Shown here piece after piece: positions 83 to 27,313 of a stretch of 32,620 nt of DNA. The DNA comes from an uncultured Acholeplasmatales bacterium. GTDB taxonomy: Bacteria > Bacillota_I > Bacilli_A > Acholeplasmatales > Anaeroplasmataceae. The position numbers and the translations under genes were made by a program. The DNA is taken from contig CALUXJ010000010.1 in NCBI GenBank assembly GCA_944324725.1, positions 1 to 32,620 of the forward strand, read 5' to 3'. Position 1 is the first letter of the stretch. Each line of letters opens with the position of its first letter. The notes beneath the pieces are model-generated. The model made no database searches. It saw only the letters and a list, made by a program, of their open reading frames with translations, and was not told the DNA's origin.

Positions 83-1024
83 CTAGAGTTTAATGTTTTC
101 ATCTAACCATAATTGGAGTTTACCTAGTTCATTATTAAAGGCTTTAACATCTGATAGGCTAGGTAGTTTAGTCATAAAGCACTTCTTGTTTTCCCAAATC
201 TTTTTATTAATAATGATGATACTTTTAGGCTTGCTGACAAACATATTTTCTGGTAGCTCAATTAAACCAATAATGCTAGCCTGTTGTAATAATTCTTTTT
301 TAAAGGTTTTGTCCTTATCATAATCAAAGAAATCATTACCAACAACACCTATAATATAACCATTATCTTTAAGCATATCTACATAATGTAATATCCATTT
401 ATAAGGTAGGTAATCCTTTTCCTTATCTTTAATAACGTTAGGTAGGTCAAAAACTACAAAATCCATATTATTTAAATGAAGATTGGCTGTATCTTCTAAG
501 TGCAATTCAATATTAGTTTCTAGCAAATCGGCAAATACCTTAGCAATTCTTATCATATATTCATTATGATCACAGCCAAAAAGATTTAAATTAGCTGTTA
601 AATGATTACTAATAGTATAAAGCATATTACCAGAACCTATTAGAGGGTCACAAATATTTAATTCCTTGGCTTTACTTAAACGGCTAATTAAATAAGCTAT
701 TAAAAGACCAATACTATCAGGTGTAGTTAAACCATTTTGAAAATTCATTTCCTTAATACCCTTAAGAATTTGGGCCTGCATAGCTTTTCTAATTTCTTCT
801 ACAGTAAAGTCTTTATCAACTAATGGCTCATAAATAGCGTTTAATTTATCGATATCTTCTTTATCTAAATCATTTAAAACCTCGCCAGCTAAAATATTAT
901 TAGCTGTTAAAATAATCAGTTCTAAATATTTTTTATGCATTTTTTCGTATAAAAAACTACAAGATTCATCAAAAACATCATAAAAAACTTCTAAATTATC
1001 TGTAATTGGTTCATTTGCTTGCAT
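83..1024 (-). CDS. YtxK-like class I SAM-methyltransferase-fold protein
   Basis: A 313-aa protein of the HsdM/N6-adenine-methylase fold. Numbered from the GTG three codons upstream, it has a helical N-terminus, a GLTTPDSIG segment (101-109), the SAM-binding motif DPLIGSGNML (129-138) and an acidic turn GCDHNEYM. Where active N6-adenine methylases have (D/N)PP(Y/F), it reads FDLPN (195-199), as in the Bacillus YtxK family, so DNA methylation is unlikely. YtxK relatives have no settled function. A GTG at 1033 is possible, but I chose ATG 1024 because GAGGTGG (1030-1036) lies 5 nt before it. It is the last gene of the minus-strand operon, about 42 nt after the giant CvpA-like gene, and may simply be a passenger. 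Confidence 0.75.
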   Translation of the reverse strand: MQANEPITDNLEVFYDVFDESCSFLYEKMHKKYLELIILTANNILAGEVLNDLDKEDIDKLNAIYEPLVDKDFTVEEIRKAMQAQILKGIKEMNFQNGLTTPDSIGLLIAYLISRLSKAKELNICDPLIGSGNMLYTISNHLTANLNLFGCDHNEYMIRIAKVFADLLETNIELHLEDTANLHLNNMDFVVFDLPNVIKDKEKDYLPYKWILHYVDMLKDNGYIIGVVGNDFFDYDKDKTFKKELLQQASIIGLIELPENMFVSKPKSIIIINKKIWENKKCFMTKLPSLSDVKAFNNELGKLQLWLDENIKL

Positions 1025-1029
1025 GTTTT

Positions 1030-1036
1030 CCACCTC
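1030..1036 (-). promoter_or_regulatory. Ribosome binding site fixing the start of the YtxK-like gene
   Basis: GAGGTGG on the minus strand lies 5 nt before ATG 1024. The upstream GTG candidate (1033) falls inside this site, so the ATG is preferred. Confidence 0.6.
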
Positions 1037-1066: not shown

Positions 1067-4000
1067 TTATAGTAAAGGGAAATTCATAAGAAAATCAGCT
1101 ATTTGATCATAAGTGAACACTGCTTTAGTTAAACTATCACCAGTTGTCAAATTATAAACCAATTCTTCTTCACTAGGGCTAATTAAAGGATTAGCAATTA
1201 AATCGGTTATGTAGCAAGTCATAATAGACGATTCCATTAAAGTAGCTAAATTGCCTATATTATTATATAAATTAGCCAAACTTAATGATATCGTAAAATT
1301 GTCTGTTAAATTAATTAGACGTAGAGCGTTAACTAAAGCTTGAATTTCACTACTTGATAACACCAATATTGAACTTCCATTGATATCGGTAGTTACGGTT
1401 GCTTCCACTTGTGAAACATACAAAGTAGTTCGATTAAGCTCAACTAAGTTTTTAGTTATGCTTGCTCGCATAATTATACTATTTGTAATAACATCTATAT
1501 TCGTTGGGAGTTTAATATCCTCAATACTTGATATGCTAGTAACATTTAAACCTTGTTGGCAAGCAATTAAGAAATTAATTAATTCAGTTTCATTAATCTC
1601 ATAAACTTGACCCATATTAGAATCAACTAGAGTTGTAATCTCTAATGGAATACTAAAAAGAGAATTAGATATTAATTCACGACTTATAGTTAAGCGAATA
1701 ATTGCTGAATTTAACAAGTACACAACATCCATCAAATTAAGACTAATTTCTTCAATATTTCTAATATCTTCTAAAGTAAGATTGCCAAAAACATTGGCAA
1801 AATTTTGATATTCAGATATTGGTAATGTACCTTGATTAACTATGCTTGATGGAACACATAAAAAATCGCTAGCTAAAATGTTTTTTGTGATAGAAGCGTT
1901 TAAAATTAATGAGTTTCTTAAATAGTTATTAAGCTCATATAATGTCATATTTGTAAAGTTTAAATCGGCTAAATTATCACCTTGCGTTTTAATAAAATCA
2001 CATAGACTGACTAATTCATCGCTAGTATAAAGCCAAGAACCACTAAAGTTTTCTTTAGCTAATATTGTAGTAGCAAGATATTCATTTTGCTCAATAGTAT
2101 TATCAATAATACCTGTAATTATGGCTTTCATTAAGGAGCCACTATAAATATAGCTGATGTTATAATTATTAATATTGGAAATCACTCTATTAACATCTAA
2201 ATTTGTCAAATCACTTAATGAATATATACCCAAATACTTAATAGCATTAATTAAATTTAATACGTCTTCTTTTTTGTATATTCCTTGTAATGGGTAATCT
2301 GTATATTTGGCTCCTGTTAATAAGTTATTGTCTATATTACTTAAAGTGTTATCTAATTGCGATGTCAAAATATAGGCAATGATTCTTGAATTATAAAAAT
2401 GTGTTAAAGTATCATAAGTTGAATTAAAGATATAAGACTCAATTAAATCTGGTGTTAAAGCATCTAGATTATTTATGCCATATTCATTTAAAACCGTAAT
2501 CAAGTTAGCAACTTCTTCTTTAATAACAACCCCATTAAGAATCAAATAGTCAAGGTAATTCAGATTCAACAAACTTGGACTAAGTGTTTCACTTAATATG
2601 TTAGAAATATTATAAGAGATAATATTAGACTCATAGGCCACATCAAGTTTGGTATTATTGTAATCATAATAATCATTTAACTCAAAGAACAAACTTTTTA
2701 CTTTAGCTGGTGAAAAATCAATATTTGGATTGCTATCTAAATCTAATATCGCATCTAAACCTTTAACAACCTTGGTCAACTCATCTGTCTCTAGCCAAAT
2801 ATTATTTGGAGCAATTAAAGCTTCCTTGCTAAGGGCTGATTCGTAGGCTGTTGGTATATCTACCTTAGCTTCTAGCAACTCATCCCTACTTTCATATAAA
2901 GCTGTAGCACTTAAAATATCACTATTTGTTATTGTATTTAAATTATTTAAAATAAACTGATAATTTATGTCATTATCTAGTAACTCTAAACCAACTGTTA
3001 GTAGACTTCTAACCTCATCCTTTAAAATTGGCTGAAATTTAGTACCATCCACTAGAGTGGTTGTACTATTACTATCATAAGCTGAATAAGGAATAATTAA
3101 CTCATCAATTTGACTTATTTTATCGCTAATTGTGTAATAAATAATTGTACTGCTTAATAAATTAGTAATATCATTGGCTGACAAATTCCAACTCTTAATC
3201 GTATCAATAGTCAGATTACCATTTAATAATTCGCTTAAAGAAATCTTTGTATTATTAATAGCTTTAATTATTTTTAAAACTTCTTCATTACTAACCCATT
3301 TTTCGACATCTAGTAATTCACTTGTTAAAATTATATCCTGGTTATCTTGGCAAATTGTTAATACCATATTAGAAATCGTGCCTAAAGCAATTATATCCGT
3401 TTCTAATAAATTTCTCACCCGATAATCACTTACGAGCTTTTCTAAATTACTAACCGTTAAGTTACCATTTAAATATTCATCACTCAAAGCAAAAATTGTT
3501 GGTAAATTATGCAAGGTTGTAATTAAATCTTCTGTTTTAATTTTAACGTAGCTTTCGCCATCTATTTCGGTAACATCTTTAGTCTCCTCTGGTATATATA
3601 TTTTAACATTTGATGCTAATTCTTGGTTAGTAATAATACTTGTTAAAATATAGTTAAAAATATTTGACTCAGCTAAGCCTTCTAGTATAGTTTTATCTGA
3701 ACCTTCATACATGGCAATATTAAAATCCATAATGACACTCTCTATATCAATTGTACCACTAGTCGCATTAGTCAGCTTACGGAAAGCCGTTTTAGCTTGT
3801 TCATTTTTAGCAACCGCCTTAAATAGCATAAACAAATTATATATTTCACCATGAGTAACTAATTTATCGCCATCATAAACATTATTGAAGTTCATTTCCG
3901 GTGGTAATTTAACTGAATAAGTTGTTTCTAGTGATGACAAAAGATTAGACATTATACCTGTTCCTTCAAAAATGGTCATTAAAACCTTGGAATTAGCAAG

Positions 4001-5641
4001 TAATTCTGTCACAATATTAAAAGTTTCTTCATTTTTAGTGCTTACAAATAAGTCATCTAGCATATAATCAATCATATTGATATCTTGATTATTTATAACT
4101 TCACCTAAAATGTCATTTAAGAAATATTTAATAGTCCCCATATTATTCATGAGATTAGTAATTTCATTATACCAATCAATATCAGATATTTGATTTTCCC
4201 TTAATTCAGCCTTAATATCTAAATTTGGGAACATATCACTATTTAGCAAATAAGTATAAATATCCCCAAATAAATCATTTAATGGTGCAAAGTTGTTTTC
4301 GTTTGCCATTATACTTAGTTTTCTCAATGAAGGAATAACTGCTTCAACATAATCATAAGCGGAGGTAGTTTCAACATTATTTAAAGCTAAAACATCTAAC
4401 GTTAGTTGCAGTAACGTATTAAAGTCTTTGCCAGTTAATATTTCATTAAGATTAATAGCATTTTCACCTTTAAAGACCAAGTCAAGAATACCGGCTGCTT
4501 GAGGAACAAGTGTCGTATTAAAATCATAATCACTAATTAGACCTTGTAATACACTAAGTGAAATATTTAAAACGTAGCTCCCCGCTTCAAAATTATCGAT
4601 AATTTGACTATATTCCGCTTGGAAGTCTGGATTACTGAAAACTGTTAATAACCTATTACTAGTTTCATTATCAAAACCATTAGCTATGGAATCCGTTAAT
4701 AAGCTTTGATCATATTTATCAATTAAACTAAGACTATCTCTAACAAATCCCATATAACTACCTACTTCTTCACGCAAATAGGCAGACTCTAAATACCCAT
4801 CATTATCATATTTAGTCGAAAAGATAATATCACTTATAAACAAATAGTATGGTTCATCATCCGAATTACCGATACTGTTTAAAATTTTAAAAATGCCTTG
4901 TTCTCCATAAGAACCAAAACCATTATAGCCAGTAACTACATAGTTGATTATTGGATCATCAATTTTTACATCTATTTTTTCTTTATTTCCTAAGCCACCA
5001 CCAATTACATAGTAAATGGTTCCTAAAAAAGAAAGTAAAACAATTCCTGAAACAAGGCCTCTAATACCACCTACTAAGGCGCCTAAAGCCCGTCTCTTAC
5101 GATAAGGATAAGCATTATTACCATTAGCATGTTCATAGTAGGTATTCTTTTTATAGCGTTTCTCTGAATAAAACAATAAATAGAATACATAAAGAATAAA
5201 TTCTAAAATTAGATAAATAACCATAAATAATACGGCAAAAAGTAAATGATAGAGTAATAGACTAACACTTGTCACGTAACCAGCATTGTTAGTTAACCAA
5301 AGCGTCAAGAAATTACCATATCCCAAATAATTAATAACAACATTTTCTAAGAAAGCTGTCATATTATAAACTTTAGCTGTATTAGTCAATTTCTCTAAAG
5401 AGGTGTTATTCAACGCAAGAACACTATTTATTAATTCGTAAATCCCTCGATCAAGCGATTCTAAATTGATGACACCTACATAGACAATTACCAAAATAAT
5501 AAATAAAATTCCCGCTTGGGCAGCCAAGATTAAACTCTTTCTAAAACCTCGCCAAAATCCAACTCCAATGCCACCAATAATGGCGAGTAAAAAGAGAATT
5601 GTAGGCAACCAAGCAATCAAAAAGGTAATTAAATTTTCCAT
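1067..5641 (-). CDS. Giant membrane protein: CvpA-like head with long external repeat array
   Basis: A 1,524-aa protein. The first ~215 residues resemble the CvpA family: membrane segments near 6-28, 37-59, 121-157 and 187-212, with the paired glycine/arginine signatures GFWRGF (28-33) and RALGALVGGIRG (about 184-195). The remaining ~1,300 residues are predicted to be outside the cell, rich in Asn, Leu, Ile and Thr. From about residue 700 they show a degenerate repeat of 70-85 residues. Each unit begins with an aromatic or hydrophobic residue, then x-x-x-E-(L/V), has a helix with LIxAI, a short (S/D)L segment, and ends in S-x-I-(I/M)-x-x-x-I-(T/S)-x-x-(I/L). About nine units are visible. I know no named family for them. 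The start is ATG with AGGA 5 nt before it, inside the last codons of the upstream gene (2-nt gap). An envelope role is inference. Confidence 0.7.
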   Translation of the reverse strand: MENLITFLIAWLPTILFLLAIIGGIGVGFWRGFRKSLILAAQAGILFIILVIVYVGVINLESLDRGIYELINSVLALNNTSLEKLTNTAKVYNMTAFLENVVINYLGYGNFLTLWLTNNAGYVTSVSLLLYHLLFAVLFMVIYLILEFILYVFYLLFYSEKRYKKNTYYEHANGNNAYPYRKRRALGALVGGIRGLVSGIVLLSFLGTIYYVIGGGLGNKEKIDVKIDDPIINYVVTGYNGFGSYGEQGIFKILNSIGNSDDEPYYLFISDIIFSTKYDNDGYLESAYLREEVGSYMGFVRDSLSLIDKYDQSLLTDSIANGFDNETSNRLLTVFSNPDFQAEYSQIIDNFEAGSYVLNISLSVLQGLISDYDFNTTLVPQAAGILDLVFKGENAINLNEILTGKDFNTLLQLTLDVLALNNVETTSAYDYVEAVIPSLRKLSIMANENNFAPLNDLFGDIYTYLLNSDMFPNLDIKAELRENQISDIDWYNEITNLMNNMGTIKYFLNDILGEVINNQDINMIDYMLDDLFVSTKNEETFNIVTELLANSKVLMTIFEGTGIMSNLLSSLETTYSVKLPPEMNFNNVYDGDKLVTHGEIYNLFMLFKAVAKNEQAKTAFRKLTNATSGTIDIESVIMDFNIAMYEGSDKTILEGLAESNIFNYILTSIITNQELASNVKIYIPEETKDVTEIDGESYVKIKTEDLITTLHNLPTIFALSDEYLNGNLTVSNLEKLVSDYRVRNLLETDIIALGTISNMVLTICQDNQDIILTSELLDVEKWVSNEEVLKIIKAINNTKISLSELLNGNLTIDTIKSWNLSANDITNLLSSTIIYYTISDKISQIDELIIPYSAYDSNSTTTLVDGTKFQPILKDEVRSLLTVGLELLDNDINYQFILNNLNTITNSDILSATALYESRDELLEAKVDIPTAYESALSKEALIAPNNIWLETDELTKVVKGLDAILDLDSNPNIDFSPAKVKSLFFELNDYYDYNNTKLDVAYESNIISYNISNILSETLSPSLLNLNYLDYLILNGVVIKEEVANLITVLNEYGINNLDALTPDLIESYIFNSTYDTLTHFYNSRIIAYILTSQLDNTLSNIDNNLLTGAKYTDYPLQGIYKKEDVLNLINAIKYLGIYSLSDLTNLDVNRVISNINNYNISYIYSGSLMKAIITGIIDNTIEQNEYLATTILAKENFSGSWLYTSDELVSLCDFIKTQGDNLADLNFTNMTLYELNNYLRNSLILNASITKNILASDFLCVPSSIVNQGTLPISEYQNFANVFGNLTLEDIRNIEEISLNLMDVVYLLNSAIIRLTISRELISNSLFSIPLEITTLVDSNMGQVYEINETELINFLIACQQGLNVTSISSIEDIKLPTNIDVITNSIIMRASITKNLVELNRTTLYVSQVEATVTTDINGSSILVLSSSEIQALVNALRLINLTDNFTISLSLANLYNNIGNLATLMESSIMTCYITDLIANPLISPSEEELVYNLTTGDSLTKAVFTYDQIADFLMNFPLL

Positions 5642-5643
5642 AA

Positions 5644-6858
5644 TTATCCTAAATGTGTTAAAGCTCCAGCTTCGATTGTGGCATCTGTTGGAAATTCGAA
5701 ATTTGCTCTTGGAACTGAACTACAACCTGTTAAAAAATAACTACTAATATATGACATATTACAACGTAAATAAGTTAAGTTGTTGGGAATATCATTTTGA
5801 GATTCACCAAACATTTGAAATAAATATGCTAAATTAGAGTTACCATAACCAAATGTTTCAATTGCTTCTGAATCAGTGAAAATACGAGAATTTACCAGGC
5901 TATTATCGCCTAGATTAACCACTTTTAAATTATAATCCTCTGCAAAAGCATCATAGCCAATTTGACCATTAACTTCTAAATTAACTTCAACTAAATTAGA
6001 GCACCCTAAAAAGGCTGAATCTCCAATACTAGAAATGGCTCCACTTACACTCTCTAATTCTGCTTCTTTAAAAGCTTCCCTGCCAATGACCAAATCACTA
6101 ACAAAAATAGTTAAATTTTTTATATCACTATTAGACATAGCTTCATCGGCAATCGCTATTACCTTCTTACCATAGTATTCTTCCTTGATGGTTAAATTGG
6201 TTGTATGACCAGAAAATTCAGTAATTGTCAGACCTTCACTACCCTCTATAAATGTCAATTTATAACCAGAACCATCATAAATTATTTTTAAATCATTTTT
6301 ATATGAATTGATAAAAATAGTAAAGAACACTAAAGCAATGATGCCTAAAACACAACAAATAAAGGGAACTAACCGAATTTTTTTCTTTTGTTTAAAGGAA
6401 GTAACTCTAAAGCTAGAGCCAGATTTTTTAGCATTAGATTCAACTATTTGATCATTACTAACTTTATACTCTTTAGCAACTTCACCAACCACTTCTTTAT
6501 GAAAATTCATTTCTTTCCTTTGTAACTTTCCTTCGTTATAAAATGCATCAGCAAAATCAGCTTGTAAAAGTTTATACTCAATGTAATGACAATTTTGTTT
6601 AACTGATAATCTATTGGGCAAAGTAAATTCTTTATTATTAACTATATTAAGTTTTTGCGCATTAATAGTTACTCTCTCGATTAAATTGTTATTTTGATCA
6701 AACTCACTTATCTGAAAAGTAATACTATTTAGTGTCTGATTCAAATTATTAACCAAAGTGAATATATAGTAATTTTCGTTAGAAAAATAATAGTATTTAC
6801 TTAAAGCAACAGGATAATCTAAAGAGCTTTTATTAATAAATAATTTAGAAGTACTCAT
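5644..6858 (-). CDS. Membrane protein with external BspA-like leucine-rich repeats
   Basis: A 404-aa bitopic protein. Residues 1-110 form a probable cytoplasmic beta-sandwich-like domain that loosely resembles the middle of the next gene upstream. Residues 111-160 are a polar, Lys-rich linker ending in KQKKK, 163-184 are one membrane segment, and 198-404 are external. The external part has the BspA/LRR_5 pattern (IGDSAFLGCSNLVEVNL, GYDAFAEDYNLKVVNL, IGREAFKEAELESV), typical of surface proteins in protein binding or adhesion. AGGAGG lies about 11 nt before ATG. The gene overlaps the upstream gene by 14 nt and is followed by the CvpA-like gene after 2 nt, so the products are probably made together. 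The ligand is unknown. Confidence 0.7.
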   Translation of the reverse strand: MSTSKLFINKSSLDYPVALSKYYYFSNENYYIFTLVNNLNQTLNSITFQISEFDQNNNLIERVTINAQKLNIVNNKEFTLPNRLSVKQNCHYIEYKLLQADFADAFYNEGKLQRKEMNFHKEVVGEVAKEYKVSNDQIVESNAKKSGSSFRVTSFKQKKKIRLVPFICCVLGIIALVFFTIFINSYKNDLKIIYDGSGYKLTFIEGSEGLTITEFSGHTTNLTIKEEYYGKKVIAIADEAMSNSDIKNLTIFVSDLVIGREAFKEAELESVSGAISSIGDSAFLGCSNLVEVNLEVNGQIGYDAFAEDYNLKVVNLGDNSLVNSRIFTDSEAIETFGYGNSNLAYLFQMFGESQNDIPNNLTYLRCNMSYISSYFLTGCSSVPRANFEFPTDATIEAGALTHLG

Positions 6859-7564
6859 TTTCTAATATACCTCCTTGACGCATTTTCTTGTTACGACGAC
6901 GCAGTGAAACATAGATTAAAACAAAATTTAGCAAAGAAAGAAATAAAACAACTACCATTGTCATAATATTAAGTGGACTCTCAAGTAAAAAATACGTACT
7001 ATAGGCTAGAAAACCTATGTATAGTATAGCTTGGCGTAAAACAAAGAAGCTCAAAAAGATAGCTAAACTAATTAAAAAAGCATTTAAGACAATTTTTTTG
7101 TTTTGCATTGGTTTAATTATTTCAGAATTTAAAGCTATTCCATCAACTTGTTTGATAACAATATTAACATCATACGCATTAGCTGGTAAGCCAATTACGC
7201 GACTAGTCGTTGTTGTTTCGCGTTCTTTTACTTGTAAAACATCTTTTAATTTATGATTTTTATTATAAACAAAAACGAAATATTCAATGACTCTAAAAGG
7301 TTTTGTATAATTACAAATTAATATTTTGTCACTACCATCTTTATTGACAATATATTTTTTTAAATACGTCGCATTTAATTTGGAACTAGCATATATTTTT
7401 ACTTCACCTGGTAAAGAGGAGTTAGTGACATTTTCTAAACACTCATCTGCTACATATGCATGGTAATATTCAATTTTATTAAATTTAGCTACTTTTAGAA
7501 TAATTATAATTGCTATAACTAAAAGTAGGGCACTAATCGTTAGAATGTAGTAAAAGATTGTCAT
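6845..7564 (-). CDS. Small membrane protein, unrecognised family
   Basis: A 239-aa protein starting MTIFYYILTI. It has one N-terminal membrane segment (about 3-25), a ~120-residue beta-rich soluble part, then about three membrane segments and a basic C-terminus (RRRNKKMRQGG). The soluble part (a hydrophobic pair, a charged LKDVLQVKE strand, then GLPANAYDVNIVIKQVDG) resembles in layout the N-terminal domain of the downstream LRR protein. I suspect a shared domain but cannot prove it. A start ten codons upstream is possible. ATG 7564 is preferred because GAGGAGAG sits 8 nt before it. It overlaps the upstream gene by 32 nt and the downstream gene by 14 nt, suggesting translational coupling. Confidence 0.6.
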   Translation of the reverse strand: MTIFYYILTISALLLVIAIIIILKVAKFNKIEYYHAYVADECLENVTNSSLPGEVKIYASSKLNATYLKKYIVNKDGSDKILICNYTKPFRVIEYFVFVYNKNHKLKDVLQVKERETTTTSRVIGLPANAYDVNIVIKQVDGIALNSEIIKPMQNKKIVLNAFLISLAIFLSFFVLRQAILYIGFLAYSTYFLLESPLNIMTMVVVLFLSLLNFVLIYVSLRRRNKKMRQGGILENEYF

Positions 7565-8483
7565 TTTGTTCACTCTCCTCATTAACTTCTTCAATAGAGA
7601 CTTTTGTTTCTTGATCAGAAATTAAATCACTGTTTTCTACTCTGGCATTAGGGATGCTTTCATGCTTATTTTCCATTTCTGGGCTAAAGGTTTCAGCTAG
7701 ATTATCATTATAAAATTTGACATCAGTCAATGTAACATTTGTTTCTAGTCTAAACAGCTCATACTTATTTAGGAATATTTCATATAGTTTGTTTTGTCTA
7801 ATTAGATGTAATAGTGGGAAAAGATAGACAACCGTCAAAATAACTAATAAGGTTAATAAAACTACACCTACAATTTCTAAAGCCCAAACACCTCTAATAA
7901 TCATACAATAGCATACCAAGAAATATAACACACCTAAAACAACAAGTGTTAACAAAGATAAAATATCTAATACTATAAGTTTTCCCATATTTTTATGGGC
8001 AGTAGCTAATGCACTTTTAAAAATATTACTTAAAGGTTCTTTAGTAAAATTATAACTAAAGAAATTATTAGCCTTTAAACATAAATTTACATAATATAAG
8101 CTTAAAACAAGCAAAACACTAATAACAACTATTATATTCCAACGATTGTTAGGAAAATATCTATTTTCAATGAAAGAGGCAAGTACATAAAATGGTAAAT
8201 AAAGTAATATAACACCCAAAAATATCACTAATTTATATAGGGCTAACACACTTACTTTATAATATTTTCCTTCTTCATCAGTCTTATTAAATATTTGGGC
8301 AAGACTGAAAGAATTGCGGCCATATTTAGCTAAGTTTAAATCACCTATAATAAATATCGGACGAACTATAATTAATATTAAACTAATTAAGCTTGCATAA
8401 AAATATATAGCATAGCTAAATATATTTTTTACTGAATTTAACATTTTACAACTTGTAATAATACAATTTCTTTTATCATTCAT
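7533..8483 (-). CDS. Polytopic membrane protein, unrecognised family
   Basis: A 316-aa protein with about five hydrophobic segments (near 20-44, 78-104, 115-137, 168-195, 199-225) and an acidic ~85-residue cytoplasmic-looking tail rich in Glu, Asn and Ser. The layout recalls bacterial membrane families with paired helices and connecting loops such as DUF975, but I see no diagnostic motif and name none. The annotated ATG follows AGAGGAG (8492-8498) by 8 nt. An alternative start at 8504 would overlap the giant MBG gene. The gap to that gene is 1 nt, so translation is likely coupled. The context suggests a membrane subunit or helper for the neighbouring large surface proteins; that is inference. 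Confidence 0.6.
   Translation of the reverse strand: MNDKRNCIITSCKMLNSVKNIFSYAIYFYASLISLILIIVRPIFIIGDLNLAKYGRNSFSLAQIFNKTDEEGKYYKVSVLALYKLVIFLGVILLYLPFYVLASFIENRYFPNNRWNIIVVISVLLVLSLYYVNLCLKANNFFSYNFTKEPLSNIFKSALATAHKNMGKLIVLDILSLLTLVVLGVLYFLVCYCMIIRGVWALEIVGVVLLTLLVILTVVYLFPLLHLIRQNKLYEIFLNKYELFRLETNVTLTDVKFYNDNLAETFSPEMENKHESIPNARVENSDLISDQETKVSIEEVNEESEQNDNLLLHSND
7573..7580 (-). promoter_or_regulatory. Ribosome binding site fixing start 7564
   Basis: GAGGAGAG on the minus strand, 8 nt before ATG 7564 and inside the end of the preceding gene. The more upstream candidate start has no comparable site. Confidence 0.6.
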
Positions 8484-8484
8484 A

Positions 8485-19100: not shown

Positions 19101-19894
19101 TAATTATCCGAAACATCCTCATCTTCCGTATTTAACACACTTACCTGGGTAGGATCAATTTTATAAGTTCCGACATTAATATTACTACTCAAACTGTCAA
19201 AATTAAGTTCTAATCTATCCCCTGATTCTAAAGTACCACTAGTAATACGATAAGAAAAAGTTGGTAAATCACCATCATATGTATGGGTTACATCATCAAT
19301 GCTTATAACTAATGGTTGTGGGGCAACTGCCAGACCTGTTTGAATATTATAATTGTCAGTAACATTGAGCCCTGAATCGTCAACAACATCGACTACTATT
19401 TCATCTTCTATACTCGTAACCGTTAAATGATGACCAGCTATAAGAGATGAGTCATATAAGTAATAATCATCAATTCCAATAAGACCATTTTCTAAATCAT
19501 CATTAGTAATCACAACATTTAATGGTCTCTTAGTAATAGTTAATGTTCCTGGATTACACTGAACATTATAAGAGTCGGTCACATCAACCATATCTTCGTT
19601 ATAAATAGTAACCGTATAATTAATAGAGTATTCTCCTACTAAAAAATATTGATTTGTATAATTAAAGGTAGCTGTATCACCTGCAAGTAAGGTACCCTCA
19701 GTTACAACAAAATCTGCATCTTGATATTCATAAACAGTACCATCAAATTCCTTAGTTTTAGGAGATAAGGTAAAGGAAACATTTATTTTTTCACCAACTA
19801 TACTACCTGTTTGTAATAAGAGAAAATAGGTGCCTAATGCCGAAATAAAAATCAATAATAAACATGATATAAATATTATTATTCCTTTTTTCAT
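16145..19894 (-). CDS. Large MBG-domain repeat surface protein (1,249 aa)
   Basis: Residues 3-27 are a signal-anchor helix after MKK. No clear cleavage site is seen, so it may remain membrane-bound. About 12 MBG-like units follow, with motifs such as KEFDGTVY, HTYDGDLP, QVYNGMIN, KNYDGQNY, KTFDNKAY and FIYSGQLV. Many units contain a (D/E)DVT-x-x-YNI strand, giving a more regular repeat than in the larger neighbour. The C-terminus ends in a short basic stretch (KLIRRLKLVQ) with no sortase signal. AGGAGG overlaps the TAG stop of the AAA+ gene upstream (9-nt gap), so synthesis is tied to that gene. A cell-surface fibre or adhesin role is inferred from the family. Sequence drift between units argues against recent tandem duplication. 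Confidence 0.85.
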   Translation of the reverse strand: MKKGIIIFISCLLLIFISALGTYFLLLQTGSIVGEKINVSFTLSPKTKEFDGTVYEYQDADFVVTEGTLLAGDTATFNYTNQYFLVGEYSINYTVTIYNEDMVDVTDSYNVQCNPGTLTITKRPLNVVITNDDLENGLIGIDDYYLYDSSLIAGHHLTVTSIEDEIVVDVVDDSGLNVTDNYNIQTGLAVAPQPLVISIDDVTHTYDGDLPTFSYRITSGTLESGDRLELNFDSLSSNINVGTYKIDPTQVSVLNTEDEDVSDNYDITIITGTLKIVKASLDVVGVSAKLEYSNESVKIADGYASQKGLIPGHSLTVKYASVDSVSVGTYEIKIAEITVLDNDGKDVTNNYDISSTNGTLEILPISLTINMASNLSQVYNGMINDFSLNELVNYDQNKLLPGDRITSLYYDKSLVEAEVGNYPLYLKYITVTNDVGEDVTKNYNISSTPGQLIITSANLIINGLKPDFTYTYGTDFNISATDLLYDGLVETEQITLIYDLRDVDFVNNQILGSSYTIKVFSAGKDVTKNYNISKSNLSFSFSKAKLTIAGYVDSKNYDGQNYVLSNKYASVTGLVVGDYINGVSYEDLDMINVGIYTPKISNVIINNASGDDVTSFYDIDMLDGNITINPRPATIGVNSMILTYNLAEDYPNYYTSSGLLTGDRAEYDEVKLNIGNNLITPQNVKIYRDTLDVTANYAITIYSGTITLEKLPIKINIADASKLYLGANPKFNSSIDNNELVFEITYIDYTNYLVGTYPIAYTNLKVYSSTDNQDVTKYLDIEVNSGSIEVQKINLDINIKPVSITYGEKLVIDSDMYHINNQELEDKNLALEFSLANELIYDTQINQTLNYHVYYQNEDVTSCFNNPSIDIILSSIMPRKLDIIGLDVTKTFDNKAYQGAELEDNYLLANNLLASDKLLISYSSDEVNVGTYALDAKVKIVNAGGIDVSRYYVFNTRGLAKLTILPYQLTQTDLQLEMPENSIYGERSYYNEIKQTTVLECQLNYLVGYLDSSNRECIPHNVGEYKMYVKELVGNGAKNFLLPDISVSFSIDKAELNIMPNSSNVQFIYSGQLVSYYSDPTNYNFMAQDSILNMNIKYVLDSEENLIDGQPFMVGTYQVTLEGVNFVDASVAQNYNIGLPTDPMTLTISPRKLYVRVENVYVSSSEQINEIIYIPFSIEGDLGANDEISYGNMVVVPSTVEGGIGRLFVLEDQIKINHLLLDIPDGTSNNKYIDVKNVMKLIRRLKLVQ

Positions 19895-19902: not shown

Positions 19903-21045
19903 CCTACACATTTTGTTCAATGTGTTTAATAACTTCTAAACATTGAACCATTACGTTTTCCCCAAATAAATCATTAATATAATTTATTAGATTATTAGCC
20001 ATTTGTCTTATATATACCGGGTTCTTATTTTCTAGTTTCCGTAATACCTTACGCGCTAATATATCATCTAAACCTTCAAGCTCTGTCCCACCACATGCTA
20101 ATAGCACCGGTATATAGCTTCTTATTTGCTTCATTATTCTATTACCAAAGGTAATTTGAAAATTATTTTGTAGATATTTATCTAGTTTCTCTAGTCTTCT
20201 CAAATTCCTATCACTGATGGTATTTTCTCTTAAGGCCTTGTTATATAAATTTATTAAATAGCTATAACTAATCTTAATATCTTCACTATATGTCGCACTA
20301 AACACATCAGCCTTTTTATCTAGATTTAAAATCATCGCTCTATCATAAACCTTATCACTTATCGCAAAGGTTGAATCATCATTATTCGCTGTCCCAACAA
20401 ACCACATATTTTCTGGTAGTTTTAATTTGCCATCTCGTAATAGCTTAGGATCATTATCCCAAGTATCAGAGACAACATCTAAATATCTACTATCTGGATT
20501 TGGTAATTCCAACAAACTTAAAAATTCAGCAAAATAATATTCTATACGCGCAATATTCATCTCATCTAGAACTGTGACATATATCTCATCATTTAAATTA
20601 GCTTCATACATCTTATATAACAAGGTTGTTTCATTAAAGCGTTTCGTAAACTCGTTGAAGTAACCAATTAAATCACTTCGTTCCTTCCACATTGGTTGGA
20701 TAGGTACAACTACTGTTTTATTCCCTAAAAACTCACCAAAGGCATAAGCTAAAGAAGTTTTACCAGTACCTGACATACCTTGTAAGATTAAAAGTTTAGT
20801 GACACTAAGACCAGCAATAAATCTTCTTATATCTAAAATGTCATAATAAAGTTTGAGTTTGGCCGCACTAAAAGCCCGAAAGGCAGCACATATTTCAGCT
20901 AAACTTAAATTATCATTATATTGTGGTTTAACATAATTAACCATCTCACGATCAATTTTGTTTAACATAAAGAAACGTGGCTCTTGAGCCTTTTTTATTT
21001 TATTGTCTTTAACTTTATTCTCTTCCTCTACTTGACTTGAATTTA
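19903..21045 (-). repeat. 1,143-bp direct duplication, copy A
   Basis: Matches 23118-24260 at a constant offset of 3,215. By eye 19903-20858 (956 nt) is identical. All eight differences (20859, 20861, 20932, 20945, 20948, 20965, 21026, 21027) lie in the last 187 nt, giving three amino-acid changes (K/R, V/I, E/A). Beyond 21045 the copies diverge completely. Confidence 0.9.
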
Positions 21046-21331
21046 CTAATTTAATAGGATTGTAGTCTACTGACTTAGCCATATCGCGATTAAAATCAAA
21101 ACTGATTAAACTATAGCGATAAGGATTTTCAAAATTAAAAAGGCAATAAACTAATAAAATAAATAAAATAGGTAATAAATAAATAATTATTTGAAAAATG
21201 ATGCTAGATAAATCAGCCCCTAAAAAAGGAGAGGTTAGATTATTATAGCTAGTGTAGTCCAAAACACTAATTATAAATAACCCCAGTACAATTAAAAGGG
21301 TTGCTATATATATAATTAAAAGCTTTTTCAT
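19904..21331 (-). CDS. Membrane-anchored McrB-type AAA+ ATPase, copy A
   Basis: A 475-aa protein. Two N-terminal membrane segments (about 3-25 and 44-66) precede a linker and an AAA_5/McrB-like ATPase domain with Walker A GMSGTGKTS (185-193), Walker B VTVLDEMN (252-259), sensor-1 region GTANNDDST (313-321) and a likely arginine finger in YDRA (330-332). All residues needed for ATP hydrolysis are visible. Such ATPases form rings that remodel partner proteins. From residue ~97 on it is almost identical to copy B (23119-24429), while the membrane part is unrelated. The ATG overlaps the upstream TAA by one base (TAATG), implying translational coupling to the coiled-coil gene. The N-terminal anchor and neighbours argue for work at the membrane rather than DNA restriction. 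Confidence 0.8.
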   Translation of the reverse strand: MKKLLIIYIATLLIVLGLFIISVLDYTSYNNLTSPFLGADLSSIIFQIIIYLLPILFILLVYCLFNFENPYRYSLISFDFNRDMAKSVDYNPIKLVNSSQVEEENKVKDNKIKKAQEPRFFMLNKIDREMVNYVKPQYNDNLSLAEICAAFRAFSAAKLKLYYDILDIRRFIAGLSVTKLLILQGMSGTGKTSLAYAFGEFLGNKTVVVPIQPMWKERSDLIGYFNEFTKRFNETTLLYKMYEANLNDEIYVTVLDEMNIARIEYYFAEFLSLLELPNPDSRYLDVVSDTWDNDPKLLRDGKLKLPENMWFVGTANNDDSTFAISDKVYDRAMILNLDKKADVFSATYSEDIKISYSYLINLYNKALRENTISDRNLRRLEKLDKYLQNNFQITFGNRIMKQIRSYIPVLLACGGTELEGLDDILARKVLRKLENKNPVYIRQMANNLINYINDLFGENVMVQCLEVIKHIEQNV

Positions 21332-23109
21332 TATTCATCACTTCTTTTACTTTGTTTTTTAACCCATAAAACTCTCTTACGGATTGACTTTTTAGTTTTT
21401 TGCCAATTGCTAGCGAAGAACTTACTTAGAGTTAAATAAGTTTCTTCTAATTCGTTAAACTTTTCTTTGTTTGTATAATCTTGACTTGACTTATGTTGTT
21501 CAAGCATTAAAGCAGCATACTCGGCCTTACGTAATAGTTCTAGTTCTTTAAAGGCTGCTTCTTTTTCAGCTAATAAGTCCTCGCCACTTTTTAAGTGTTC
21601 TTTAGCAATTACAATATCAGCTTCTAGTTTATTCTTTTTATCCTCATACTCTTTTGCTAGTTTAATTTGATAATCCGCTTTTTCATTATCTAATTTAGTT
21701 GTATACTGTGCATAATTATTTTTAAGTGTAGTGTTTTCTTTATTTAAATTATCCACCATGCTTTCTAAATTACTAACATCTGTATCATACTTAACTTGAA
21801 GTTTTTCATTTTCCTTAGTGAACTTTTCCTCAAGCATATTTATTTCATCATTATGTTTGATATTAAGTTCTTTAACTTCCTGCTGATGAGTAACCATTAA
21901 ATCTGATATTTTCTTATTTAAATCTTCTTTTTCTTGTTCTAAATTAGCATTATCAGTTAATAAGGTTTTAATTTGTTCTTTTTGTTGCTTAATTGTTTTT
22001 TCTAAAATTGGCAATTCAATTAACTGTTTTTCTAAGTCATTATTGCGTTTTTCTAAAAGCAACATGTAAGCATAAACATCGCCACCACCATCAGCAATTT
22101 TTTTCTTCAATACTTGAATTTGCCGTTTGGTTTCCTCTTCCTTTAGTTGAGCTAAACGTTTTTCTTCTTCTTGATATCTTGCCTCTAACATATTTGTTAG
22201 GTCGTTACCATATTCATAGGTTAAAAAAGAAGTTAGACTATATAATTCAGCTATTTCACTGGCTTTTACATTATCTAAAGGTAATAAATCCCGTTTAACC
22301 TCTTCAACTGTGAAACCATCAACATTGTAATTTGCTACAAATTCATAAAGAGCTACTGCTTTTTTAAAATTATTATTATTTTTTAAAACGTTAGTCTTAA
22401 CGATAGGTGGTTTAATCATCGGACTCTTAGCGACTTCGATTATAAGCGGGCGATTTAAAAGAGCATTAACCCATTGCTCGCAATTTTTAATTCGTTCTAA
22501 AATTTCCCTGCCTAAATCATCAGTTAATGGATAAGGATTATTCTTACGACTCACTTTAAAGTGCGTTGCAAATTCATATTCTTCCTTAGATAGGCTAATT
22601 TTCTTTACTAAATTAAATTCTGCATCGTAGCAAGCTAAAAGCTCACTAATTTTTTGATAGCGTAAATAGATAAAATCACGCAAATAGCATAACAGCATAT
22701 AAAGAAATCTATTTTCATATACTGCATAGTCGCTTTCTTTTTCCACCATCAAGATTTTATCAGGAACTAAATTATCATCTTTTTGTTCCCTAGTTATTAA
22801 TTCGCTATGTTTAGCTAAATGTTCAACTGATTCTCTTCCAACTCGTTTTACCTTTTCAATATCTACAACTTCACTATCAGTCCGAATAAATTGTCTTTCT
22901 TCAGCTAAGGCTTTTTCAATAAAAGGTAGGCCTGCTTCAATATTTTTAAGCCAAATTTCATCAACATGACACAAATATTTCTTTACCCAAAAAACATCAG
23001 ACTCATCTTTTTGTTCGATTGGCTTGCGCTCTTTTAACAATGCATTATCATCTTTAGTATATGAACGATATTTTTTAAAAGCTCTATATAATACATCAAG
23101 CTTATCCAT
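21331..23109 (-). CDS. DUF2357-like protein with long coiled coil and no nuclease domain
   Basis: A 592-aa protein. Residues 1-300 resemble the N-terminal part of DUF2357/McrC-like proteins that accompany McrB-type ATPases, with the hallmark DYAVYENRFLYMLL (about 127-140) and a later block NRPLIIEVAKSPMIKPP followed by LKNNNNFKKAVALYEF. In that family a PD-(D/E)XK nuclease normally follows. Here residues ~310-545 are a Glu/Lys-rich coiled coil, and the basic C-terminus shows no nuclease motif. It sits between two nearly identical AAA+ genes and is probably their partner. ATG 23109 is preferred to GTG 23118, because AGGTGA (overlapping the upstream TAG stop) lies 5 nt before it. A structural tether role is inference. 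Confidence 0.65.
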   Translation of the reverse strand: MDKLDVLYRAFKKYRSYTKDDNALLKERKPIEQKDESDVFWVKKYLCHVDEIWLKNIEAGLPFIEKALAEERQFIRTDSEVVDIEKVKRVGRESVEHLAKHSELITREQKDDNLVPDKILMVEKESDYAVYENRFLYMLLCYLRDFIYLRYQKISELLACYDAEFNLVKKISLSKEEYEFATHFKVSRKNNPYPLTDDLGREILERIKNCEQWVNALLNRPLIIEVAKSPMIKPPIVKTNVLKNNNNFKKAVALYEFVANYNVDGFTVEEVKRDLLPLDNVKASEIAELYSLTSFLTYEYGNDLTNMLEARYQEEEKRLAQLKEEETKRQIQVLKKKIADGGGDVYAYMLLLEKRNNDLEKQLIELPILEKTIKQQKEQIKTLLTDNANLEQEKEDLNKKISDLMVTHQQEVKELNIKHNDEINMLEEKFTKENEKLQVKYDTDVSNLESMVDNLNKENTTLKNNYAQYTTKLDNEKADYQIKLAKEYEDKKNKLEADIVIAKEHLKSGEDLLAEKEAAFKELELLRKAEYAALMLEQHKSSQDYTNKEKFNELEETYLTLSKFFASNWQKTKKSIRKRVLWVKKQSKRSDE

Positions 23110-23114
23110 CTTCG

Positions 23115-23121
23115 TCACCTA
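23115..23121 (-). promoter_or_regulatory. Ribosome binding site fused to a stop codon
   Basis: TAGGTGA on the minus strand serves as the stop codon of AAA+ copy B (TAG) and as the ribosome binding site for ATG 23109. Similar stop/SD fusions occur before 24429 and 19894. Confidence 0.6.
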
Positions 23122-24260
23122 CACATTTTGTTCAATGTGTTTAATAACTTCTAAACATTGAACCATTACGTTTTCCCCAAATAAATCATTAATATAATTT
23201 ATTAGATTATTAGCCATTTGTCTTATATATACCGGGTTCTTATTTTCTAGTTTCCGTAATACCTTACGCGCTAATATATCATCTAAACCTTCAAGCTCTG
23301 TCCCACCACATGCTAATAGCACCGGTATATAGCTTCTTATTTGCTTCATTATTCTATTACCAAAGGTAATTTGAAAATTATTTTGTAGATATTTATCTAG
23401 TTTCTCTAGTCTTCTCAAATTCCTATCACTGATGGTATTTTCTCTTAAGGCCTTGTTATATAAATTTATTAAATAGCTATAACTAATCTTAATATCTTCA
23501 CTATATGTCGCACTAAACACATCAGCCTTTTTATCTAGATTTAAAATCATCGCTCTATCATAAACCTTATCACTTATCGCAAAGGTTGAATCATCATTAT
23601 TCGCTGTCCCAACAAACCACATATTTTCTGGTAGTTTTAATTTGCCATCTCGTAATAGCTTAGGATCATTATCCCAAGTATCAGAGACAACATCTAAATA
23701 TCTACTATCTGGATTTGGTAATTCCAACAAACTTAAAAATTCAGCAAAATAATATTCTATACGCGCAATATTCATCTCATCTAGAACTGTGACATATATC
23801 TCATCATTTAAATTAGCTTCATACATCTTATATAACAAGGTTGTTTCATTAAAGCGTTTCGTAAACTCGTTGAAGTAACCAATTAAATCACTTCGTTCCT
23901 TCCACATTGGTTGGATAGGTACAACTACTGTTTTATTCCCTAAAAACTCACCAAAGGCATAAGCTAAAGAAGTTTTACCAGTACCTGACATACCTTGTAA
24001 GATTAAAAGTTTAGTGACACTAAGACCAGCAATAAATCTTCTTATATCTAAAATGTCATAATAAAGTTTGAGTCTAGCCGCACTAAAAGCCCGAAAGGCA
24101 GCACATATTTCAGCTAAACTTAAATTATCATTATATTGTGGTTTAATATAATTAACCATTTCCCGATCAATTTTGTTTAGCATAAAGAAACGTGGCTCTT
24201 GAGCCTTTTTTATTTTATTGTCTTTAACTTTATTCTCTTCTGCTACTTGACTTGAATTTA
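23118..24260 (-). repeat. 1,143-bp direct duplication, copy B
   Basis: Second copy of the segment at 19903-21045. It covers the AAA+ domain, part of the linker and the stop codon. The two copies flank the coiled-coil gene as direct repeats. Confidence 0.9.
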
Positions 24261-24429
24261 GAACAACAACCTTTGGTTTAGAGTTTACATTTTCTTTGGG
24301 TTTTGGCTCTAATTTCGGTTTACGTGGTAATTTGAGTAGTAAAATTATGATACCTAAAATCAGCAATACTAGAAGGGCAATTGCATAAGCTAAAATAGCT
24401 CTAGGATTATTAAAAACACTGTTTTGCAT
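23119..24429 (-). CDS. Membrane-anchored McrB-type AAA+ ATPase, copy B
   Basis: A 436-aa protein with one N-terminal membrane segment (about 11-33), a Pro/Lys-rich linker (PRKPKLEPKPKENVNSKPK, 35-53) and the same AAA+ domain as copy A: Walker A GMSGTGKTS (146-154), Walker B VTVLDEMN (213-220) and the GTANNDDST sensor. From residue 58 on the two proteins differ at only three positions. The anchors are unrelated, so two ATPases with the same motor could sit in different membrane sites or mix in one ring. A strong AGGAGGAG overlaps the TAG stop of the upstream pseudo-ATPase gene. Near-identity alongside anciently diverged N-termini points to recent duplication or gene conversion. Confidence 0.8.
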   Translation of the reverse strand: MQNSVFNNPRAILAYAIALLVLLILGIIILLLKLPRKPKLEPKPKENVNSKPKVVVLNSSQVAEENKVKDNKIKKAQEPRFFMLNKIDREMVNYIKPQYNDNLSLAEICAAFRAFSAARLKLYYDILDIRRFIAGLSVTKLLILQGMSGTGKTSLAYAFGEFLGNKTVVVPIQPMWKERSDLIGYFNEFTKRFNETTLLYKMYEANLNDEIYVTVLDEMNIARIEYYFAEFLSLLELPNPDSRYLDVVSDTWDNDPKLLRDGKLKLPENMWFVGTANNDDSTFAISDKVYDRAMILNLDKKADVFSATYSEDIKISYSYLINLYNKALRENTISDRNLRRLEKLDKYLQNNFQITFGNRIMKQIRSYIPVLLACGGTELEGLDDILARKVLRKLENKNPVYIRQMANNLINYINDLFGENVMVQCLEVIKHIEQNV

Positions 24430-24439
24430 AACACTCCTC

Positions 24440-27313
24440 CTAGTTAATTTCTCTTACAGCATTGGGCAAGGAAATATCTGGGAAACATTTCTCAAGTAGT
24501 TCCTTTAAATGCTCTTCTTTATTTTCTGAACTATAATAACCTAGTTGTTTTACAATTGGTAATAGCTTATTTGTTAAAAGCACATCTAAAGTTTGATCAG
24601 CATCACCAGTCAATTCATAATAAATGGCCGTATAAGCTTCCATGCTTAGAATAATACGATGTGATAGCTCATAGTCTGTTTTATTTTTAACTTCGGCTAC
24701 AAATAGGTCTAGCATTTGCCAATATTTATCTGGCAAATAATTTTGATGACGAGCTAACTTAACTTCTTCCTTAAAGGCTATTAAATTTTTCGGATTGAAG
24801 GTATAGATTTTGTCTGTGTCTTCTCCCTGTTCTAGCTTTAAAGGTAAGTAAACACCAACCTCATTCAATGCTAGATTAGTTTCAGGAACTATTACAAAAT
24901 ACCAAATATTTCTTGGAATAATGAACCGATTATATTCAGCTAAATTTAAATAGTGTTTTTCTACGTTAGAATTAATGTTAGCAATTTCTTCACTTAACAC
25001 CTGACTAATTTCAGCTGTACTAGCTTCAATAACACTAATATACATTTGATTTGGATTTTGTCCCGCCTTTAATAGTGTTTCTGCTAAACCTGTCATCATA
25101 TAGCTATTAGCAGCTTTATTTAATTGTTTATATAGCATATGATTATTTTCATCATAATTAACATAATTATAATCAATGCCAAAAAAGTTGCTGAGTAACT
25201 GGCAAAATTTAATATTTAATTCACTAGGTTTTAAAATAATTAATCTAGTCATCCCCATGGCAGCTAATAGTGCACAAACATCAGAATAGTTTGAAATTAA
25301 ACCACTATAAGCTAAATAGGCTAAAAAATCTTTACTGAAAGTTGTGAAATTCACATTGCTAATTTGCCCTCTATACGTCTCATTAATTGTAAAATCAGCT
25401 TCCTTTGGCTTTTCTACTATTACATCTTTTTTTTCAATTGGTACTAAATTTTCTTTGCTTAATGGCATAGTAAAGGTTTCTCTTACAACATCCATAAATT
25501 CAGGGCATTTACGCATATCTATAGCTTCCATAGTAGGAACACTCGTCTTTTTTACTTCTATATACAAGTGCACCAAATAAGCTAAACCTGTACAGCCTGC
25601 TATAACAGCAAATGCAAGTGCTAAATAACCAATTTCACTATTTGAATATTGATACATACTTATAAAAATGAGAACACAAAAAATTGTAAGTAAAAGAGCA
25701 AATATAACTTTGCCAACTAACCTAGTTTTAGCAGGTTTAGTAACCTTAAGACTCGCTTGCAACACATCACTAAATTCTTGAACTTCATAAGTTGGTCTTT
25801 CTTTTTGTTCAATTTGAATGGTTCCCTCTAAAACAACCTTTGTACCATTAGCTACATACAATTGGTAGATGCCGGCTGATAATTCTTCAGTAATATCAAT
25901 ATAAATTTTTTCTGTTCGTAAAGCATTAATTTTTTCCTTATGTAAAGCAACATAGATTATATTTTGTTTACTATCTTTCACATATATATTAAAACTACAG
26001 GCGACAGCATAATTACTCTTATTAGTACAAGTAAAAGAAATAGCATCACTTCTAACTATAAGATTTTTATAAGAAAAGAGATTATATGATAAACCCGTAA
26101 AGCACTCATAATTTCCTAGTTGCTTAAATAAATGACCACTAGGATTCAAATCACCAGATAATATTTCATTTAAAACTTGACCGGTATGGATATTAATATT
26201 CGGCAAATAAATAAGACTAGCAAATGTATTAAGTTCTGTAACAGCAAAGTTCTTTATTGTTTCTAAAACTACAATGACTTTCTTTTGATTTTCTTTTAAA
26301 ATATCAACAACTCTTTTTTGACCATTATTTAACTTTTCTAAATTATGACAATCTAAGAGAAGAACTACTACATCAATATCAACTAGTTTCTCAATAATTT
26401 GTTTTAATTTTAAATCATTAATAAAACCATCATTCTCCCAACAATTATCTTGATAAGTTACATTCAAATTTGTAAATTTTACTTCTTTATATAATTGAGA
26501 AAATAAATTACCTAGAACAGCAACTCTAAGATTATTAGCTAATGGTAAAAGATTATCATTTTTTAGTAATACTACGCCTTCTTCACTAATTTGTTTATCT
26601 AATATTTTTTTACTATATTCACTAATTAACTCATTTTGAACTTGGTATGTAGAAGCTAAAATATTTAAGACTTTATTAACAGCCTTATTAATAGTATCTA
26701 AATCAACTATTTTATTACTATTAATAGCCAAATAGTTTTTGTATTCTTCTTCTGTAATCTCCTCGCTCATAAATGCATCGTATTTATTTAGCATATCTTT
26801 TACATTAGTAATAAGCTCTTTTTCAATATCCGGATTAGAAATAAACACAAAACAAGCTCCATTTTTAAGAGCTTCAATACTAGACTCATAATCAGCAGCC
26901 TCTATAGCCATGAATTCCTGTTTATCAAGAGGTAATTGTTTATCATAAAAATATATAACGTTATCTCTACCCAACTCCATATTAGCTACAAATAAAAATT
27001 GTTGCGCAGCAAAAGCCTTAGCAATATATTCATAGGCTTTTAAATTATAAAAATGGTTATCACTAATAAAATCAGCTGCATCTAAAAAAAATAACGTCTT
27101 ATCAACGATTACATTTTGCTTAGTAAACATTGTAAAAAGGTTCAAGTCGATAGAACTTGCTACCTCGTTAAAACTCAATGAATCAATTTTTTTAACAGCT
27201 AAACTATCAATTCCTAGTTCTTCGACTGATCCTGTTTGACCATCTATAATAAATAAAAGTCTAATCTTTTCTTCTAAAGTTAAACGATTTAATACACTTT
27301 GATAATTTTTCAT
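24440..27313 (-). CDS. GH3-like pseudo-glycosidase fused to a degenerate AAA+ domain
   Basis: A 957-aa protein. Residues ~9-500 follow the beta-glucosidase GH3 plan: LTLEEKIRLL start (11-20), a shortened barrel, the GH3_C signature ISEEGVVLLKNDNLLPL (242-258), GDLNPSGHL (387-395), and a GLSYNLFSYKNL opening of an Fn3-like domain (407-418). The usual catalytic SDWGA region reads IEAADYE (137-143), so the nucleophile Asp appears lost. Two membrane segments (533-553, 560-586) follow. Residues 650-957 align by eye with the neighbouring AAA+ domains: MTRLIILKPSELN (688-700) replaces Walker A, MYISVIEASTAE (757-768) replaces Walker B, and NIWYFVIVPETN (802-813) replaces the sensor. No P-loop remains. 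It is the first operon gene, with AAGGAG 9 nt before ATG. A scaffold or sensor role is inferred. Confidence 0.7.
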   Translation of the reverse strand: MKNYQSVLNRLTLEEKIRLLFIIDGQTGSVEELGIDSLAVKKIDSLSFNEVASSIDLNLFTMFTKQNVIVDKTLFFLDAADFISDNHFYNLKAYEYIAKAFAAQQFLFVANMELGRDNVIYFYDKQLPLDKQEFMAIEAADYESSIEALKNGACFVFISNPDIEKELITNVKDMLNKYDAFMSEEITEEEYKNYLAINSNKIVDLDTINKAVNKVLNILASTYQVQNELISEYSKKILDKQISEEGVVLLKNDNLLPLANNLRVAVLGNLFSQLYKEVKFTNLNVTYQDNCWENDGFINDLKLKQIIEKLVDIDVVVLLLDCHNLEKLNNGQKRVVDILKENQKKVIVVLETIKNFAVTELNTFASLIYLPNINIHTGQVLNEILSGDLNPSGHLFKQLGNYECFTGLSYNLFSYKNLIVRSDAISFTCTNKSNYAVACSFNIYVKDSKQNIIYVALHKEKINALRTEKIYIDITEELSAGIYQLYVANGTKVVLEGTIQIEQKERPTYEVQEFSDVLQASLKVTKPAKTRLVGKVIFALLLTIFCVLIFISMYQYSNSEIGYLALAFAVIAGCTGLAYLVHLYIEVKKTSVPTMEAIDMRKCPEFMDVVRETFTMPLSKENLVPIEKKDVIVEKPKEADFTINETYRGQISNVNFTTFSKDFLAYLAYSGLISNYSDVCALLAAMGMTRLIILKPSELNIKFCQLLSNFFGIDYNYVNYDENNHMLYKQLNKAANSYMMTGLAETLLKAGQNPNQMYISVIEASTAEISQVLSEEIANINSNVEKHYLNLAEYNRFIIPRNIWYFVIVPETNLALNEVGVYLPLKLEQGEDTDKIYTFNPKNLIAFKEEVKLARHQNYLPDKYWQMLDLFVAEVKNKTDYELSHRIILSMEAYTAIYYELTGDADQTLDVLLTNKLLPIVKQLGYYSSENKEEHLKELLEKCFPDISLPNAVREIN

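Follow-up and report, generated by a model that had tools for sequence, protein, structure and literature searches.

The stretch analysed here (the window) comprises positions 1 to 32,620 of contig CALUXJ010000010.1, from an uncultured Acholeplasmatales bacterium of the family Anaeroplasmataceae, and contains on its minus strand a six-gene core that encodes relatives of the McrBC restriction enzyme together with giant surface proteins. Our analysis supports the view that this core is one conserved unit, which couples AAA+ proteins anchored in the membrane to surface proteins of very large size with N-terminal anchors. An earlier, sequence-only reading of the same DNA had described an eleven-gene operon for an undescribed envelope system driven by AAA+ proteins. 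The conserved link between AAA+ and giant surface proteins stands, whereas the system is not wholly undescribed and not all eleven genes belong to it. The window, contig C10 in our set, is part of a 1.40-Mb genome that is 89% complete, and all gene coordinates given below are on its minus strand.

BLAST and profile searches of relatives revealed a fixed gene order of pAAA, AAA1, the DUF2357/coiled-coil gene, AAA2, MBG1 and MBG2. The AAA-DUF2357-AAA arrangement was found at 42 loci in genomes of Clostridia and Bacilli, recovered mostly through the AAA or the DUF2357 gene itself. The gene upstream of AAA1 is pAAA in 28 of the 37 loci with a readable neighbour, and an MBG-like gene follows AAA2 directly in 28 of 35 loci, the position after that being MBG-like in 28 of 30. 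As a control, an even draw of 394 genomes from the class, made with no selection for AAA or surface genes, was searched with the DUF2357 profile. This matched 15 genomes; AAA-DUF2357-AAA was present in all 11 loci newly taken from the draw, and an MBG-like gene lay first or second downstream in each of these except one near a contig end. Because the arrangement recurs in more than 50 loci, including this unselected draw, it is far beyond chance, and the predicted co-occurrence of AAA+, DUF2357-like and MBG genes is borne out. The distribution is patchy across gut Clostridia and wall-less Bacilli, and includes Clostridia, Lachnospiraceae among them, that presumably have a wall. Since only two of the eight genomes of the host genus carry the core, we regard the system as accessory. 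A viral origin was rejected, as viral contigs gave no match and plasmids and phages yielded distant AAA matches only.

The two ATPases, AAA1 (23119..24429, 436 aa) and AAA2 (19904..21331, 475 aa), both match AAA_5 in Pfam (E about 1e-6), and a profile of their family matched only McrB chains in the PDB (6hz4, 6ut6 and 7vsr, E. coli McrB). An N277-x-D279-D280 motif is invariant in 17 aligned sequences. A motif of this kind, NxD with D or E in most cases as the next residue, characterises the NxD branch of McrB relatives (PMC11090510), and the McrB-specific profile match combined with the invariant motif places AAA1 and AAA2 in this branch. The two proteins differ in their transmembrane (TM) anchors: the upstream copy has a single TM helix (anchor A; 36 of 38 loci), and the downstream copy has two (anchor B; 36 of 37 loci). 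No DNA-binding specificity domain was found on the ATPases, which consist of a TM anchor and an AAA domain only. The description of the pair as anchored McrB-type ATPases is thus upheld.

Between the ATPase genes lies that of a 595-aa protein (21331..23118) with a long C-terminal coiled coil, which comparison with its homologs identifies as a nuclease-less McrC (DUF2357) relative. Pfam finds no DUF2357 (PF09823) in the window protein, so that the DUF2357-like label given to it earlier holds through its homologs: the domain is found in 7 of 19 aligned sequences (best 1.9e-12) and is above cut-off in the two-AAA homolog from locus L086. No match to a nuclease domain was obtained for the protein or its homologs, and the C-terminal half is helical in an AlphaFold2 model, which places a beta-hairpin at residues 164-191 and helices at 308-594. 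The modelled hairpin is reminiscent of the McrC stalk (PMC7680126). A PDB profile search with this protein returned generic coiled coils only, and a single-sequence search of genome contigs recovered no relatives, although the AAA alignment did recover them. Translation is likely to start at an internal ATG (MDKLDVLY), as in the orthologs. A C-terminal segment with an invariant tryptophan (W572) is kept in the DUF2357 proteins of two-AAA loci and absent from the single-AAA type; this segment is a possible docking site.

The first gene of the core encodes pAAA (24440..27313, 957 aa), in which a cytoplasmic pseudo-GH3 region is followed by two TM helices (529-589) and a catalytically dead McrB-like AAA region. 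GH3_C is matched at 8.6e-12, and Foldseek supports a GH3 fold (7ms2, E 7.8e-22). The fold is therefore common to pAAA and GH3 glycosidases, but the catalytic N-terminal domain of the latter, with its conserved nucleophile, gave no match in pAAA, and the putative nucleophile region is not conserved in the alignment. Walker A, Walker B and NxD motifs are absent from the AAA-like C-terminal half in all aligned pAAA orthologs, in agreement with the initial recognition of this protein as a pseudo-ATPase/pseudo-glycosidase.

Downstream of AAA2 are the genes for MBG1 (16145..19894, 1249 aa) and MBG2 (8485..16113, 2542 aa), both type-II membrane proteins with MBG/YDG-like repeats and no LPxTG motif. 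For the MBG assignment made from the letters alone, Pfam gave MBG_2/YDG signals in several stretches, whose scores, at 23.8-24.9 bits (MBG1: MBG_2 24.6), fall just under the cut-off of 25. Across the relatives, the product of the first gene after AAA2 always has an N-terminal TM helix and never LPxTG. MBG2 begins with a cytoplasmic tail of ~25 aa bearing the motif MxYxxYxxK, whose two tyrosines are 96% and 90% conserved in 31 orthologs; a G/YG motif follows the TM helix (post-TM G 96%, n=31). The ectodomains of these orthologs vary greatly, and total lengths range from 405 to 2542 aa. In four Clostridia the protein in the MBG1 position contains a transglutaminase-like domain (L077:11274-14030, L080:11104-13959, L085:12863-15847 and L086:15158-18424), which is absent in the window. 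Giant proteins also adjoin related single-AAA loci, an example being a 4167-aa protein with 22 cadherin-like domains beside a single-AAA/DUF2357 locus (L061:985-13488, minus strand).

A feature of the ATPase genes that the sequence-only reading had missed is the near identity of their 3' ends. The last 955 nucleotides (nt) of the window AAA1 and AAA2 genes are identical, with 8 mismatches over 1134 nt and unrelated anchors beyond. Of about 40 loci, 17 have motor domains that are 99-100% identical over ~1.1 kb within a genome, at a between-genome motor identity of 55-89% for the same loci. Most of these 17 loci have identical runs of 1016-1170 nt, and the identity typically ends only a few bases from the stop codon on one side and ahead of the TM segment on the other. 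When all 34 genes were compared, the best match of every motor domain was its own sibling (34/34), while that of every anchor was the same-position anchor of another genome (34/34; sibling 0/34), the anchor having been taken up to the last TM helix with the homogenised linker excluded. Locus L090 displays an isolated conversion tract: its copies are identical for ~190 codons in the region of the Walker motifs and ~45% identical at the immediate flanks. These patterns identify concerted evolution confined to the motor domain, by repeated gene conversion that spares the anchors. Active sites of AAA+ proteins sit between adjacent subunits. One McrC, moreover, contacts several McrB subunits (PMC7680126), and given these two properties, assembly into a shared ring would be the simplest reason for motor homogenisation. 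Three loci (L072, L074 and L079) have pAAA and a single AAA gene, with the DUF2357 gene absent between the repeats and elsewhere in the metagenome-assembled genome (MAG); in L074 and L079 the MBG genes come after the single AAA. Loss of DUF2357 at these loci by a recombination switch across direct repeats was set aside, since it is indistinguishable from assembly collapse.

The window system had been thought to resemble no described system. This does not hold, as the AAA/DUF2357 pair belongs to the NxD McrBC branch that includes its closest counterpart, CoCoPALM, a system named by Bell et al. 2024 and linked by them to pilus assembly (PMC11090510). The main text of that publication gives no description; CoCoPALM comprises an NxD McrB with an FtsB-like TM/coiled-coil part, a coiled-coil McrC and pilus factors of the signal-peptidase family (PMC11090510). 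We found no follow-up publication describing it. Common to CoCoPALM and the window are an NxD McrB-like NTPase with an N-terminal TM helix, an McrC relative with a coiled coil, and adjoining surface or fibre genes. The window differs in having two ATPases with unlike anchors rather than one, a dead AAA/pseudo-GH3 third subunit, MBG giants and gene conversion of the motor domain. As regards the FtsB-like TM/coiled-coil part, TM anchors are present in the window with linkers that are not obviously coiled coil, and single-AAA relatives have a TM helix plus a charged helix. No signal-peptidase gene occurs in the window, and it is because this feature fails that we treat the system as a variant of CoCoPALM and not as a member. 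Judged by gene content, it is a sister form of CoCoPALM, set apart by its two anchors, dead third subunit, MBG giants and missing signal peptidase. Single-AAA relatives fit the CoCoPALM account, with Peptidase_S26 in L045 and L111. The same family is found in a second AAA-DUF2357 locus of the host genome (G000:C11, L051:1-19901), beside a gene for a List_Bact_rpt/collagen-flanked surface-repeat protein and genes for two small secreted proteins, both TasA/camelysin-like by eye. It seems likely that this second locus is CoCoPALM in a wall-less host.

McrBC and CoCoNuT systems were compared in the same way. The window system shares the McrB AAA+ domain and the DUF2357 partner gene with McrBC Type IV restriction, but is membrane anchored, has NxD rather than NxxD, and lacks both the PD-(D/E)xK nuclease and the modified-DNA-binding domain. 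Likewise, the NxD McrB branch and coiled coils are shared with CoCoNuTs, but the window locus has no HEPN or other nuclease and no RNA-binding domain.

The host is probably wall-less, as no penicillin-binding transpeptidases, FtsW/RodA or sortases were found in its genome, while control searches matched these in 10, 10 and 3 of 14 genomes, respectively. Anaeroplasmataceae are treated as peptidoglycan-deficient, yet part of their genomes keep peptidoglycan genes (PMC10868615). Despite these missing functions, the window encodes an undecaprenyl-phosphate translocase-like (DUF368) protein (27962-28855, minus strand).

All eleven co-directional genes proposed for positions 83-27313 are present on the minus strand, and the intervals between them, from pAAA to the last gene, are +10, 0, -1, +9, +31, -20, -62, -14, +2 and +33 nt. 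The largest gap is hence 33 nt and not the roughly 42 nt first given, and some of the overlaps probably reflect the choice of start codon. Only the six core genes are conserved as a unit; four of the others are variable companions. TM1 (7533..8504), a small multi-TM protein, has a similar protein at the same position in L055. Homologs of TM2 (6845..7594), a small membrane protein, lie downstream of the core in L036, L052, L053 and L055 and upstream of pAAA in 13 further loci. The adjacent gene (5644..6858) encodes a BspA-type leucine-rich repeat (LRR) protein with an N-terminal domain and one TM helix, an identification confirmed by LRR_5 (1.5e-9); LRR neighbours adjoin TM2 in L052, L053, L058 and L086, and genes of both the TM2 and the LRR type turn up repeatedly, on one side of the core or the other. 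The 1524-aa giant (1067..5641) has an N-terminal multi-TM head that looks CvpA-like by eye, but Pfam detects neither CvpA nor any other domain in it, and the CvpA assignment was dropped. A similar head occurs in a protein encoded upstream of pAAA in L040, and a companion protein in L077 has a weak Colicin_V match (2.8e-4). The last gene (83..1033) was correctly read as YtxK-like, its product containing the YtxK helical domain (YtxK_like, 2e-15) and N6_Mtase (1.1e-12). This methyltransferase is probably a housekeeping neighbour: the L052 ytxK ortholog directly precedes acetate kinase (8.4e-151), and as part of a ytxK-ackA neighbourhood YtxK was ruled out as a component of the system. A group II intron D1-D4-3 match (44.5 bits) lies at the contig end (32315-32429, minus strand).

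These observations enable us to propose, with moderate confidence, that the core encodes an accessory AAA+ machine, derived from McrBC and bound to the membrane, that is dedicated to its own giant surface proteins and built on a mixed-anchor ring, which an McrC-like shaft would regulate. In this model, AAA1 and AAA2 would co-assemble in one McrB-type hexameric ring under the membrane, held by two kinds of anchor, and selection for interchangeable subunits of that ring would keep the motor domains identical. The DUF2357 'finger' would enter the ring pore and trigger NTP hydrolysis, as McrC does, and the dead AAA/pseudo-GH3 protein may be a non-catalytic ring subunit or an adaptor. The stroke could then reach the cytoplasmic tail of MBG2, either directly or through the coiled-coil shaft, with the insertion, clustering, extension or retraction of surface fibres as its output; it is in this sense that the earlier suggestion of a machine that assembles, displays or pulls on fibres may apply. 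In McrBC itself, McrC inserts in the pore of McrB, and the proposed cycle is rotary (PMC7680126). We consider doubtful the more specific possibility of a hetero-hexameric ring with two kinds of anchor, its motors kept identical by ongoing conversion, that moves or extends giant surface fibres by rotating or pulling a coiled-coil shaft, which would make it a new class of envelope motor derived from a restriction enzyme.

Several observations weigh against the proposed machine. That the ATPases touch the surface proteins is something we infer. Promoter and terminator scans of the window were at background level. In the model of the DUF2357 protein region 77-128 is of low confidence, and Foldseek found no McrC match for it in the PDB; this null is uninformative because of the long coiled coil and a pTM of 0.50, and McrC kinship therefore rests on the Pfam matches in homologs. 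The ATPase copies have diverged in about 20 other loci, most to 48-62%, and as these are about half of the two-AAA loci, copy identity is evidently not required everywhere. Finally, close relatives of the ATPases are classed as candidate defence proteins (PADLOC PDC-M26A), a model that the AAA region matches at 9e-44, over the AAA part only of its 724 positions; no publication on this model was found. The match favours an anti-phage, Type IV restriction-like role, in which tethered McrB/McrC-like proteins would sense infection and the surface proteins would be receptor masks or sensors, as do the patchy distribution (two of eight congeners, 15 of 394 class genomes) and the prediction that NxD McrB relatives such as CoCoNuTs are defence systems (PMC11090510). 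However, genes for a nuclease, HEPN, methyltransferase modification or a toxin are missing from the conserved core, a coiled coil stands where a nuclease would be at the end of the DUF2357 protein, and the constant partners are giant surface proteins, so that we regard defence as unlikely.

Other readings keep the surface proteins at the centre. A complex of the MoxR/McrB type might simply fold, insert or extract the MBG proteins, as a maturation or quality-control chaperone with no later mechanical role. AAA_5-family complexes such as NorQ/NorD remodel partner proteins (PMC9976466), and the operon supplies no secretion or anchoring partner specific to MBG1 and MBG2, but such a chaperone would not usually need two unlike anchors, a coiled coil of such length or a dead third AAA, which makes this unlikely. 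In Mycoplasma mobile gliding, internal ATPases drive giant surface legs, and by analogy the ring could turn or pull surface fibres for motility or traction. The gene content of the host, which suggests a wall-less cell, the giant proteins, anchored at the N-terminus and with their cytoplasmic tails conserved, and the rotary cycle proposed for McrBC (PMC7680126) would all suit such a device. It is nonetheless improbable, as the same module is found in presumably walled Lachnospiraceae and other Clostridia, certain downstream proteins measure merely ~180-400 aa, and no homology to known gliding proteins turned up, none having been sought. The near-identical ATPase pair could also be an assembly error, or the result of independent recent duplications, and carry no functional meaning: most of the genomes are MAGs, short-read contigs break at identical 1.1-kb repeats (L005, L006 and L073), and in three MAGs a single AAA is present and the DUF2357 gene is missing. 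Homogenised copies are nevertheless found in a named isolate (L086), where they carry 16 scattered differences, in G086, which is one 1.55-Mb contig, and on a 3.2-Mb contig of G213, and an assembly artefact is unlikely for these reasons. Together with the orthology of the anchors by position (34/34) and the bounded conversion tract of L090, they render this last explanation highly improbable.

If our proposal of a McrBC-derived machine dedicated to its own surface proteins is correct, a DNA-restriction motor would have been rebuilt as a membrane machine serving the surface of many gut bacteria, some of them wall-less and with no detectable sortase. The gene conversion confined to the motor would in turn provide natural evidence on subunit mixing in an AAA+ ring, and assembly of the hetero-ring is directly testable. 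A named strain that carries the module, Anaerocaecibacter muris CLA-AA-M11 (L086), brings such experiments within reach.

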